A DNA stretch of 64,000 nucleotides, taken from the NCBI GenBank assembly GCA_028716225.1, contig JAQUQE010000004.1:62001-126000 (forward strand), given 5' to 3'. The stretch comes from Dehalococcoidales bacterium. GTDB lineage: Bacteria > Chloroflexota > Dehalococcoidia > Dehalococcoidales > UBA5760. Under the pieces are notes generated by a model. The model ran no database searches, had not been told where the DNA came from, and saw only the letters and a program-made list of their open reading frames with translations. Positions 19,983-24,684 of the stretch are shown piece after piece (position 1 is the stretch's first letter; the number at the start of each line of letters is the position of its first letter). Position numbers and translations under genes: made by a program.

Positions 19983-20327
19983 TCAACTATCCTTGATCAT
20001 AACCAGCATCATCTTAAATCTTTCGACCGCTTTAAGGGCATGAGGCCTGTTAGCCGGCATGATAACCGCTTCACCTGCTCCCATCCGAATGCTTCGGCCG
20101 CCGATAGTAATGTCAGCTTCACCATCGATCATATAGACCAAGGCATCGAAAGGAGCGGTATGCTCGCTCAATCCCTGCCCTTTGTCGAAAGCGAACAAGG
20201 TGACCGATCCCGCATTCCGTCCGATTATTGTCCGGCTTACTACCGTGCCGCTCTGGTAGTCGACCAGAGCGGCTATTTGTGCCGATTCAGCTATCAAAAC
20301 ATCCCCAGGGTTATTTTCTATGTCCAT
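19983..20327 (-). CDS. cupin-domain protein
   Basis: A 114-residue single-domain cupin. The first motif (GQGLSEHTAPFDALVYMIDGEADI) and second motif (AGEAVIMPANRPHAL) form the small beta barrel; the His in SEHTAPFDA and the Asp in FDALVYMIDG are candidate metal ligands, as is His in RPHAL. The start at 20327 is preferred over the ATG at 20357 because GAGGAGG (20339-20345) lies 11 nt upstream of it. It follows hcp by about 41 nt. Cupins of this type often accompany Hcp in anaerobes, perhaps as a metal or redox sensor; its biochemical role is unknown. Confidence 0.82.
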   Translation of the reverse strand: MDIENNPGDVLIAESAQIAALVDYQSGTVVSRTIIGRNAGSVTLFAFDKGQGLSEHTAPFDALVYMIDGEADITIGGRSIRMGAGEAVIMPANRPHALKAVERFKMMLVMIKDS

Positions 20328-20368
20328 AGGGTTACTAACCTCCTCAGTCGGAATCATAGACTCTCTGA

Positions 20369-21931
20369 TTACCCTAACATAGCCTTCATATCAGCCTCCG
20401 GAGTCGATATCGGTTTCAGATTGAATTTTTCAACCAGGACGCTGAGCACGGTGGGAGATACGAAGGCCGGTAGCGAAGGACCCAGATAGATGTTCCTGAT
20501 GCCAAGTGAAAGGAGAGTAAGTAAGATACAGACTGCCTTCTGCTCGTACCAGGATAAAACCAGTGAAAGAGGCAATTCGTTAACACCGCAATCGAAGGCT
20601 TTAGCCAATGCCACAGCTACTTGAATGGCCGAGTAGGCATCGTTGCACTGCCCCATGTCAAGTAACCGGGGCAGACCGGAAATTTCACCGATTTTAAGAT
20701 CATTGAAGCGGAACTTACCGCAGGCAAGTGTCAGCACTACCGTATTGTCTGGAGTTTGCTTCACGAACTCCGTATAGTAGTTGCGTCCCGGTTTAGCACC
20801 ATCACAACCACCAACGAGGAATATGTGTTTGAGAGATCCTGATTTCACCGCCCCAATGACCTTATCAGCTACTCCCATCACGGTATTTCTGGCAAAGCCG
20901 GTCATCAACTCGGTGCCTCCATTGATTCCAGTGAACTGCTTGTCTTCATCCCAGCCACCCAGCTCAAGCGCCTTTTCAATAACGGGAGTGAAATCTTTCT
21001 TGCCATCCTTGTCAGGTATATGTTTCAACCCCGGATAACCGACCACCGACGTGGTGAAAATATTCCCGGCATAAGACTCTCTGGGCGGCATGATACAGTT
21101 GGTAGTATAAAGAATCGGCGCGGGGAGATTATCGAACTCCTTCTGCTGGTTCTGCCAGGCAGTTCCGTAATTACCCTTCAGGTGGGAATACTTCTTCAGT
21201 TCCGGGTAGCCGTGGGCAGGCAACATCTCTCCATGGGTATAGATGTTAATACCCTTTCCCTCCGTCTGCTCCAAAAGTTGCTTCAGATCCAGCAGATCGT
21301 GACCGGTCACCACGATAAACGGCCCTTTTCCCACTTTCATACTCACTTTGGTAGGTACGGGATGACCATAGGCTGAAGTATTGGCTTCATCCAGCAGGGC
21401 CATGCACTTGAGGTTAACCTGCCCGAATTCCATGATCAAAGACAACCACTCATCTACGCTATGGTCTTCCCCGACGGCCCGCATGCCCTTGTAGAGCCAG
21501 GCGGTAACCTCCGGATCATCCTTACCCAGTATATGAGCATGCCAGGCATAGGCGGCCATGCCTCTCAACCCGAAAAGCAGTGTCGAGCGAAGCGAAACGA
21601 TATCGGTATCTCCATGGAAGAGTTTAGCCGGGTCGAAATCTGCGGCACCACCCAGTTTCTCCTTTGCTGCTTCCACTCGAATTTTGAGTTCAGCAATGCG
21701 CACCGGGTCGAAGTTAACATTAGTCAGGGTAGCGAAAAGTCCCTGCATCATCAGTTCATCTGCTTCTTTGCCCGGTGTTTTCCCTGCGGCGACACGTGCC
21801 AGACCTACCAGGGCGCAAACCAGCTCATCATGCTTATTGGCTACCTCAGGTTTCTTACCACAGACGCCCGCTTTGGTACAGCCCGTGCCTTTGGCTGTCT
21901 GCTCGCACTGGAAACAAAACATGTCAGTCAT
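20369..21931 (-). CDS. hcp: hybrid cluster protein (hydroxylamine/NO reductase)
   Basis: A 520-residue Hcp with the N-terminal 4Fe cluster motif Cys-x2-Cys-x8-Cys-x5-Cys (from residue 5) and the hybrid-cluster ligands further on (for example GHDLLDL, TNCIMPP, GGCDGAKPGRNYYT and ACGKFRFN). The length and N-terminal pattern fit class I. Hcp detoxifies nitric oxide and hydroxylamine in anaerobes. AGGAGGT lies 8 nt before ATG. A Crp/Fnr gene is divergent and the intergenic region carries a palindrome placed near -41 relative to the predicted hcp start, which suggests activation by that regulator. Confidence 0.95.
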   Translation of the reverse strand: MTDMFCFQCEQTAKGTGCTKAGVCGKKPEVANKHDELVCALVGLARVAAGKTPGKEADELMMQGLFATLTNVNFDPVRIAELKIRVEAAKEKLGGAADFDPAKLFHGDTDIVSLRSTLLFGLRGMAAYAWHAHILGKDDPEVTAWLYKGMRAVGEDHSVDEWLSLIMEFGQVNLKCMALLDEANTSAYGHPVPTKVSMKVGKGPFIVVTGHDLLDLKQLLEQTEGKGINIYTHGEMLPAHGYPELKKYSHLKGNYGTAWQNQQKEFDNLPAPILYTTNCIMPPRESYAGNIFTTSVVGYPGLKHIPDKDGKKDFTPVIEKALELGGWDEDKQFTGINGGTELMTGFARNTVMGVADKVIGAVKSGSLKHIFLVGGCDGAKPGRNYYTEFVKQTPDNTVVLTLACGKFRFNDLKIGEISGLPRLLDMGQCNDAYSAIQVAVALAKAFDCGVNELPLSLVLSWYEQKAVCILLTLLSLGIRNIYLGPSLPAFVSPTVLSVLVEKFNLKPISTPEADMKAMLG

Positions 21932-21983
21932 TCGATTACCTCCTACTTGATTCTGGCAGCAAATTATTTGCGCTGCTAAATAT

Positions 21984-21992
21984 AATATAATA
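21984..21992 (-). promoter_or_regulatory. -10 region of hcp
   Basis: On the minus strand the AT-rich run contains overlapping TATTAT (21992-21987) and TATATT (21989-21984). With the second hexamer the start falls near 21977 and the palindrome at 22011-22026 is centred about 41.5 bp upstream, the class II activator position. No good -35 box is present, as expected for an activator-dependent promoter. Confidence 0.45.
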
Positions 21993-22010
21993 CAATGACG
22001 ACGTGAAAGC

Positions 22011-22026
22011 GGTAACGTAGGTTACC
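22011..22026. promoter_or_regulatory. perfect 6-4-6 palindrome, probable Crp/Fnr-family operator
   Basis: GGTAAC-GTAG-GTTACC is a perfect inverted repeat between hcp and the divergent Crp/Fnr gene, ending 16 nt before the regulator's ATG. Half-site size and spacing fit a Crp/Fnr dimer. It would lie downstream of TATAAT boxes (21981-21991) usable by the regulator gene, so autorepression plus hcp activation is plausible. Confidence 0.55.
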
Positions 22027-22042
22027 AAAAAGAAGTTTTTCA

Positions 22043-22735
22043 ATGTATTTGGAATGGATTGATACCTTGAAGTCCGCTTTGCTGTTTCGCGGCATCGGCA
22101 GCGATTCTTTAAATATCATGCTCGATTGCCTAAAGCCGACTGTACGCCGGACCAAACAGCGTGAGATTATCGTAGCTTACGGTCAGCCGTTTCAGGGTAT
22201 CGGGATTATCGCCAGCGGCAAGGTGGCTCTTAGCAAAGAAACGTATTCCGGTAATCGCATTATCATGGAGATACTAGAAGCCGGCGATGTTTTCGGAGAA
22301 GTGGTGGCCTTTTCAGACCGCAGAATCTGGCCGATGACCGTTATCGCACAGGAAGATTGTGTCTTACTTTTTCTCCCGCCGGATAAGATAACCGGTGCCT
22401 GCTCAAATATCTGTTCTTCTCACAGTACCCTGATTATAAACATGCTGCGAATCTTATCCAACCGGGCTGCAATGTTGGATAAGAAGATAGAGCACATTTC
22501 ATCCAAGAATATCAGAGGTAGAATCAGCAGCTATTTGCTGGATATCTACCTCCAGTCGGGTAATAAGGAACTCACGCTCACGATGAAAAGGCACGAGCTC
22601 GCGGACTATCTCAACATACCCCGGCCTTCTTTATCCCGAGAAATGGGTTCGATGCGTGATGACGGGATCATTGAATTTGAAGGCTCACATGTTACCGTCA
22701 AGAATGTACTGAAACTGGAGAAGTCAATCCAGTAA
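22043..22735 (+). CDS. Crp/Fnr-family regulator, HcpR-like by context
   Basis: A 230-residue regulator. Residues about 15-125 form the cyclic-nucleotide-binding-type beta barrel (GIGIIASGKVAL, EILEAGDVFGEVVAFSD). A long dimer helix follows, then a winged helix-turn-helix (MKRHELADYLNIPRPSLSRE, about residues 180-199). There is no N-terminal four-Cys set as in Fnr, so it probably does not sense oxygen with a 4Fe-4S cluster; haem or NO sensing as in HcpR proteins is possible. Divergent transcription from hcp with a shared palindrome supports control of hcp. A strong terminator follows at 22820-22851. Confidence 0.85.
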   Translation: MYLEWIDTLKSALLFRGIGSDSLNIMLDCLKPTVRRTKQREIIVAYGQPFQGIGIIASGKVALSKETYSGNRIIMEILEAGDVFGEVVAFSDRRIWPMTVIAQEDCVLLFLPPDKITGACSNICSSHSTLIINMLRILSNRAAMLDKKIEHISSKNIRGRISSYLLDIYLQSGNKELTLTMKRHELADYLNIPRPSLSREMGSMRDDGIIEFEGSHVTVKNVLKLEKSIQ

Positions 22736-22876: not shown

Positions 22877-23593
22877 TTAGTCTTCAAATGCCTGGCTTAC
22901 CTTCCAGACTTTCCAAACGTTGCCCACCAACTCCGGACCCGGCTTCAGTGTCGGCTTACCGGGCTTCCAGCCCGAAGGAGTGGCTTCTGTTCCCTTGGAA
23001 TTCCGTACCAGTTGGAACGCTTTGATTTGCCGGATAGATTCACTAACATTTCTGCCCACCGGAGGTGTTAACACTTCGAATCCCTGTATATTGCCATCGG
23101 GATCGATGATGAACCTGCCTCTCGTTTCGACGCCGCTATCCTCGTCGTATATGCCATACAATTTTCCTATACTGCCGTCCTGATCGGATAACATCGCGAA
23201 CGGAATGTCCTTGTTAATCATCTTGGAAAGTTCATGTTCATTCCACATCTTATGTACAAAGACACTGTCCACACTGACCGACAGTACTTCTACACCCAGG
23301 TCTTGCAGTTCGGCATACTTTTCAGCAACTGCTGAAACTTCCGTCGCTCAGACAAAGGTGAAGTCACCCGGGTAGAAGCACAGCAATACCCATTTCCCTT
23401 TATATTCGGAGAGACTGGTATTCATGAACTTGCCTTTGTAGAAAGCGGGGGCGGTAAAATCGGGGGCTGGTTTTCCTACCTTTACCATCGCTTGTTTCGC
23501 CTCCTTTACATTCAACTCGGTATTAGGAGCAGTCTCAAGAGTCGGCTTCTTAATAGGTGGCCTCTGGCATCCTGGCTTAAACTCTTCAGGCAT
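22877..23593 (-). CDS. selenocysteine-containing peroxiredoxin (TGA read as Sec82)
   Basis: One continuous frame of 238 residues is interrupted only by a TGA at 23350-23348. The TGA lies exactly where peroxiredoxins carry the peroxidatic cysteine: Pro-Gly-Asp-Phe-Thr-Phe-Val-[TGA]-Ala-Thr-Glu-Val, that is the Pro-x3-Thr-x2-Cys motif with Cys replaced. Both sides match AhpC/Prx1-type proteins, including [13 protein letters not shown] and the Arg in RGRFIIDP. A stem-loop at 23320-23337 fits a bacterial SECIS. The part after Sec82 has no cysteine: the usual resolving site (Val-Cys-Pro in GxVCPAGW) reads Ala-Thr-Pro-Ser-Gly-Trp. It would thus work as a 1-Sec enzyme using an external reductant. 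ATG 23593 has AAGGAGG 7 nt upstream. The N-terminus is about 38 residues longer than usual. Sec machinery is not in the window. Confidence 0.85.
23320..23337 (-). promoter_or_regulatory. candidate bacterial SECIS element
   Basis: Read 5' to 3' on the minus strand, TTTCAGC (23337-23331), loop AGTT, GCTGAAA (23326-23320) form a perfect 7-bp stem. The loop begins 17 nt after the TGA and has G as its second base, within the rules known for bacterial SECIS elements (loop 16-37 nt from UGA, G among the first two loop bases). Confidence 0.7.
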
Positions 23594-23624
23594 AAGCAAA
23601 CCTCCTTACTGACAACTATATATT

Positions 23625-24222: not shown

Positions 24223-24684
24223 TTAGCCCTGTATTTGCTTACCAGTTATCCGGGTGATGTCAATTCTGATTACGTTTACAGTGGCAAGTGACGTTTTTCC
24301 GAATGTGAAATCCCCTTTATCGTAGTGGTTCATTATTATATTAAGACCATGTGACTTTTTTTCATCATCCAAAATATGGGCCTTGCCAAATCCAATTACA
24401 CTCCGATATTTCATGGAGCAATCACAGGGAGTCTCTGCCCTAGTAAACTCCAAATCAATCGCCATTTCAAAGCAAACCTTAGGGTTCTTATTTATGATAT
24501 CAATCTTCCGTCCATCAAGCCTGCTGTGAAAATAGAGCTTGCCCCTTTCGTAACCGAAACAGACTGGCACTACGTATGGTTCGTCACCATCGGCAAGACC
24601 AATATGGCAAACCATGGCCCTCTCGATTATTTTCTCAATTTCGCTGATATCATCAAACTTCCTATTGCCCAAGATCACCCCCAC
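24223..24684 (-). CDS. pyridoxamine 5'-phosphate oxidase-like flavin-binding protein
   Basis: A 153-residue split-barrel protein of the PNPOx-like superfamily, subgroup related to NimA-type nitroimidazole resistance proteins. Typical segments are the N-terminal helix DISEIEKIIERA, CHIGLADGDEPYVVPVCFGYERGKLYFH (about residues 26-53) and the central YRSVIGFGKAHIL strand. It probably binds FMN or F420 and acts as a small redox enzyme. The substrate cannot be read from the sequence. It is a single gene with no close partner. Confidence 0.85.
   Translation of the reverse strand: MGVILGNRKFDDISEIEKIIERAMVCHIGLADGDEPYVVPVCFGYERGKLYFHSRLDGRKIDIINKNPKVCFEMAIDLEFTRAETPCDCSMKYRSVIGFGKAHILDDEKKSHGLNIIMNHYDKGDFTFGKTSLATVNVIRIDITRITGKQIQG

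Follow-up and report, generated by a model that had tools for sequence, protein, structure and literature searches.

A conserved, predicted HcpR2-type operator between divergent hcp and hcpR genes of Dehalococcoidia

The interrupted palindrome GGTAAC-GTAG-GTTACC, located at positions 22011–22026 (centre 22018.5, no strand assigned) of the 64-kb stretch of DNA that was analysed (the window), is in all likelihood the operator of the HcpR2-type regulator encoded beside it, placed so that the regulator would act on hcp as a class II activator and would cover +9 to +24 of its own gene. The palindrome lies between two divergent genes. On one side, 79 bp separate it from the start of hcp (20369–21931, minus strand), which encodes a hybrid cluster protein of 520 aa (Prismane; hydroxylamine reductase family; PF03063, 2.5e-163; TIGR01703, 1.7e-208); on the other, 16 bp separate it from the start of hcpR (22043–22735, plus strand), which encodes a Crp/Fnr-family regulator of 230 aa. 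The original prediction had called the palindrome perfect; it is present as quoted, and both 6-bp arms of the 6-4-6 repeat are indeed perfect, but the GTAG centre is asymmetric and not self-complementary. The site type has been known since a prediction made in 2005, and what is new here is its occurrence in the class Dehalococcoidia, together with some unusual details.

HcpR2-type Crp/Fnr regulators adjoin hcp and have the predicted operator GTAACnnnnGTTAC, which, as far as the accessible passages of the original study go, is tied to a proline at CRP position 181 (Rodionov et al., 2005, PMC1274295). The same passages place the HcpR2 regulon in Clostridium, the Thermotogales, Bacteroides and Treponema, and describe HcpR2-type proteins as lacking the FNR-type cysteine motif (PMC1274295). 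When aligned with the CRP and FNR of E. coli, the recognition helix of the window regulator, R194-P195-S196-L197-S198-R199, corresponds to residues 180–185 of mature CRP, with R194-P195 opposite R180-E181 of E. coli CRP. The palindrome is therefore the motif predicted for this regulator, since its Arg180-Pro181 pair fits the published rule (PMC1274295). Pro181, GTAACnnnnGTTAC upstream of hcp and a regulator gene beside hcp were all found, which is the likeness to the HcpR2 regulon as described in those passages; the Dehalococcoidia, the paired −10 spacings, a Met183/GTAGC variant and a conserved set of cysteine and histidine residues go beyond them (PMC1274295). The pairing of regulator and site in the original prediction, where the published match went unrecognized, fits the known HcpR2 motif, and the locus would extend the HcpR2 regulon to the Dehalococcoidia. 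The effector and HTH domains of the regulator were detected above cut-off (PF00027 and PF13545, respectively), and the AlphaFold model of the hcpR product (pLDDT 87, pTM 0.63) had P. gingivalis HcpR (9day) as its best Foldseek match. The T. maritima protein 1o5l, presumably one of the proteins of the 2005 HcpR study, matches the regulator family profile at 6.4e-29. A survey of the HcpR literature, covering titles and abstract openings among the matches listed and with subscription papers mostly outside it, returned no Met183 variant and no Dehalococcoidia hcpR, which is weak evidence of absence.

Palindromy by itself says little here, because the window contains 20 perfect 6-4-6 inverted repeats. 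The sequence GGTAACnnnnGTTACC was found in 31 of 294 genomes of the class, mostly away from hcp, and of 29 inspected loci that carry the 16-mer, from a sample of the class (L130–L158), only L131 and L139 have it beside hcp and hcpR. The signal above chance comes from conservation of the site at the hcp/hcpR locus. Of 61 genomes searched, 10 (counting that of the window) encode a close orthologue of the regulator (at least 55 % identity); the motif was present in 10/10 of these and divergent hcp in 9/10, the tenth contig ending first. The source genome is of 2.64 Mb; a Dehalococcoidia metagenome bin has a regulator sharing 97 % identity with the one encoded there. Scanning named genomes yielded 51 regulator loci, Heliobacterium and Clostridium tetanomorphum being among the cultured relatives with the operator. 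The Dehalococcoidia set comprised 16 distinct genomes with readable upstream DNA (the window, L012 and L037–L050; L063 was left out, its contig beginning inside the gene), and the operator preceded hcpR in every one; hcp was divergent in 15/15 loci with enough contig. Absence of the palindrome before orthologous hcp genes had been named in advance as grounds for giving up the idea; this check was run, and the presence of the operator at 16/16 Dehalococcoidia hcpR loci leaves the idea standing. Among 36 Firmicutes loci, one of which (L058) lacked readable upstream DNA, hcpR was preceded by a GTAAC- or GTAGC-type operator in 29/35; as the loci are related by descent, neither this count nor those from the Dehalococcoidia are made up of independent cases. 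The exceptions were L073 and L074, with no operator before hcpR, and L078, L080, L082 and L083, with degraded operators that keep 10/12 bases in L078 and 9/12 in the other three. The operator was found in none of four hcp paralogues located away from a close hcpR orthologue (L110, L111, L112 and L115). The last of these, in a close relative (G007:C61), is a second, 48 %-identical hcp; it has no GTAAC operator, and another Crp/Fnr gene lies on its contig. The contig JAUVYB010000010.1 (L040) is labelled Deltaproteobacteria, yet was placed in the window's order, and is probably a mislabelled bin.

The positions of the predicted promoter elements relative to the operator are also conserved. A predicted hcp −10 element, TATATT (21984–21989, minus strand), lies 21 bp from the operator and implies an hcp start near 21977; taken as −12 to −7, it puts the operator centre at −41.5 of hcp, as had been calculated originally. 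In the opposite direction, where the original prediction named no promoter elements, a predicted hcpR −35 element, TTGCGC (21968–21973, plus strand), stands 17 bp before a predicted −10 element, TACAAT (21991–21996, plus strand), which ends 14 bp before the operator; the implied hcpR start is near 22003, from which the operator occupies +9 to +24. We counted −10-like hexamers, agreeing with TATAAT at five or more of the six bases, at each possible distance from the operator. A hexamer in the hcp direction was present at the 21-bp spacing in 11/16 Dehalococcoidia and 25/29 Firmicutes loci (in some of the latter the divergent gene is not hcp), and a hexamer in the hcpR direction ended precisely 14 bp short of the operator in 16/16 and 19/29, respectively; in 1000 base shuffles, the highest counts at any spacing were 4/16 and 7/29. 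In 13/16 Dehalococcoidia loci, TTG also stands where the hcpR −35 is predicted, at 17 bp from the −10. The signals in the two directions are separable: their hexamers occupy separate bases, and in L084, L085 and L086 the hcp-direction one stands alone. Furthermore, the three operators located away from an hcpR start (L073, L076 and L078) all keep the 21-bp hexamer spacing; in L073, a tandem arrangement with hcp downstream of hcpR, the hexamer before hcp is a perfect TATAAT. As originally proposed, the site would lie at a class II position for hcp and after the start site of the regulator gene; both placements are supported by spacings conserved in two phyla and by the three detached operators.

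The position of the hcp −10 is less sharply marked within the Dehalococcoidia. The 21-bp hexamer is weaker (three or four of six) in 5/16 loci of this class (L039, L044, L046, L047 and L048), and another hexamer, 18 bp from the operator, is nearly as good, occurring at 9/16; 21 bp is preferred because of the Firmicutes counts and the evidence of L073, L076 and L078. A consensus scanner chose an alternative TATATT, 26 bp away from the operator and paired with a TTCACG −35, that is present in the window and its nearest relatives; this hcp −10, 5 bp further out, is not conserved in more distant loci. At class II CRP- and FNR-dependent promoters the operator is centred at −41.5 and there is no −35 element. 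The inferred −10 position and its conservation put the present operator near −41.5 of hcp, and the absence of a −35 is likewise shared with such promoters, but here the operator additionally overlaps a divergent promoter at its start. In Tindallia (L076, near 1182, and L078, near 8310), the second operator precedes a small gene, by eye a cupin; a comparison of the window's own cupin with this small gene gave no significant match.

From this geometry we infer binding by the window regulator, activation of hcp and repression of hcpR. An activated dimer at −41.5 would recruit RNA polymerase, as a class II activator, to an hcp promoter that appears to have no −35 of its own, and the same dimer would cover the initially transcribed region of hcpR from +9 to +24. 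The predicted −10 elements of hcpR and hcp are 1 bp apart on opposite strands, both between the implied starts at 21977 and 22003. The two promoters would be mutually exclusive, because they occupy the same DNA, and therefore only one could hold polymerase; binding of the dimer would tip the balance towards hcp and keep hcpR low. The most economical reading seems to be that hcp is activated while hcpR expression falls. Negative autoregulation is probable, but it would not be universal, because L073 and L074 have no operator, and L078, L080, L082 and L083 a degraded one, before hcpR. Membership of the HcpR family suggests NO or a related nitrosative stress as the signal. The simple NO-responsive feedback switch first proposed goes further than the evidence: the geometry at both promoters is supported, but the peroxiredoxin gene, where the site was to be looked for, has none, and the sensor residues differ from those of the heme-binding HcpR of P. 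gingivalis. The locus offers a precise, testable geometry for one operator serving two divergent promoters.

The same HcpR operator might instead serve a regulator that represses hcp at rest, with NO damaging the sensor so that the DNA is released and hcp derepressed. Repression of hcp until NO arrives is the model put forward for D. desulfuricans HcpR2 in the accessible passages of PMC5701242, and the conserved cysteines of the present regulator could hold a cluster that NO destroys. A repressor, however, needs neither a fixed −41.5 position nor a promoter without a −35, and the retention of the 21-bp spacing in 25/29 Firmicutes loci and at 3/3 detached operators makes derepression an unlikely explanation. 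We give far less credence to a role for the palindrome as RNA, in which a hairpin in the hcpR leader would affect translation or transcript stability. The predicted 5′ leader does fold with the 6-bp stem of the palindrome (−12.2 kcal/mol for 60 nt, z −2.3), but the arm sequences themselves are conserved, the variant arms of L051, L052 and L055 break a pair, the element of L073 precedes the predicted hcp start and is not part of the message, and no terminator-like site was found.

That the palindrome arose by chance, or is the operator of an unrelated regulator, is just as hard to believe. The abundance of perfect inverted repeats in the window and the scatter of the 16-mer through the class speak for chance, but the conservation of both position and sequence at 16/16 orthologous loci led us to reject it. 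Absence of the site from 4/4 hcp paralogues away from the regulator argues against chance and an unrelated regulator alike, and the site matches the motif that the accessible part of PMC1274295 gives for the same recognition helix.

According to the accessible passages of PMC12750200, activation by P. gingivalis HcpR requires Met68, which probably ligates heme. In our alignment this residue stands opposite Lys65 of the window regulator, which lacks the heme-ligand Met, and the equivalent residue is Lys or Arg in all 16 Dehalococcoidia rows (the window, L037–L050 and L063). Cys29 is present in 15/15 of these rows having that residue, and Cys120, Cys124 and His127 are each present in 16/16. The same four residues are invariant in 23 Firmicutes rows (L051–L062 and L064–L074) but not in L075–L087, which lack the insertion bearing Cys120. 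A Cys/His-based sensor in the clade is plausible. A canonical FNR [4Fe-4S] cluster was considered and rejected, as the FNR cysteines 20, 23, 29 and 122, which we take to be the cluster ligands, align with no cysteine of the window regulator. We put forward, tentatively and with considerable doubt, that an HcpR-like clade of Dehalococcoidia and Peptococcaceae-type Firmicutes may sense nitrosative stress through Cys29, Cys120 (in a clade-specific insertion), Cys124 and His127, probably with an Fe-S cluster or a thiol/metal site and not a Met-ligated heme, that one operator may toggle two exclusive, overlapping promoters, and that operator preference may have shifted with a change of Leu183 to Met. 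With the heme ligand lost and the cysteines conserved, the nature of the NO sensor in this clade is a testable question.

Two characterized proteins invite comparison, each on the accessible passages of its report. P. gingivalis HcpR (9day; PMC12750200) has the closest fold by Foldseek and activates hcp, but it differs from the present regulator in having Met68 in place of Lys65 and Gln at position 181, and in lacking the four-residue insertion with Cys120. Desulfovibrio desulfuricans HcpR2, likened here by description, is also a Crp/Fnr protein controlling hcp, and an NO-sensitive Fe-S cluster has been proposed for it; in contrast, it is a proposed repressor, and its helix is said to be without CRP-like residues (PMC5701242).

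Variation in the recognition helix is accompanied by variation in the operator. Eleven regulators carry Met instead of Leu at CRP position 183 and form one group (support 93/93), with a single change, in a tree covering 51 related proteins. Wherever the upstream DNA of a Met183 locus could be read, it contains GTAGCnnnnGC(T or A)AC (10/10) and never GTAACnnnnGTTAC (0/10), while GTAACnnnnGTTAC is found at 35/35 Leu183 loci with an operator before hcpR. Operators resembling GTAGCnnnnGCTAC were seen upstream of hcpR in L051, L052, L055, L064–L067 and L070–L072. Since one evolutionary event in one clade is involved, the link between Met183 and the operator shift is a correlation without replication. 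A change between Leu and Met at 183 together with A-to-G in the half-site may mark 183 as one more position that determines specificity, in addition to the published 180 and 181.

Sites resembling the operator were also sought more widely. No second site was found in the 64-kb window at up to one mismatch to GGTAACnnnnGTTACC. In the window's own genome the exact 14-mer has four matches, of which the hcp/hcpR copy is the only intergenic one; two others (L034 and L036) lie inside listed ORFs, and the last (L001) falls in a stretch whose translation looks by eye like part of a PEP-synthase-like protein, despite the absence there of any listed closed ORF of at least 80 aa. Sites with one mismatch numbered 17 in this genome, compared with 12 for a control pattern. 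A wider regulon in the genome was rejected, the other three exact matches being read as coding.

The cupin gene directly downstream of hcp (19983–20357, minus strand; PF07883) is separated from it by an 11-bp gap, and the two are probably co-transcribed. A cupin homologue stands beside hcp in 6/14 Dehalococcoidia loci (L037–L050), several of the remainder being on shortened contigs. On the other side of hcpR lies a peroxiredoxin gene (AhpC/TSA; 22877–23599, minus strand). A search for the palindrome upstream of this gene had been suggested; none occurs there at up to one mismatch, and the peroxiredoxin was dismissed as a target of the regulator, as the window holds no further operator within that limit. 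The reading of this gene contains an in-frame TGA at residue 84, at the position of the peroxidatic cysteine (context DFTFV-U-ATEV), and a tRNA-Sec was matched in the genome at 71 bits; because of these two observations, the product is probably a selenoprotein. Further along, at 24223–24684 (minus strand), a pyridoxamine-oxidase-fold protein is encoded that resembles the NimABC nitroimidazole reductase family, with a score far under the model cut-off.
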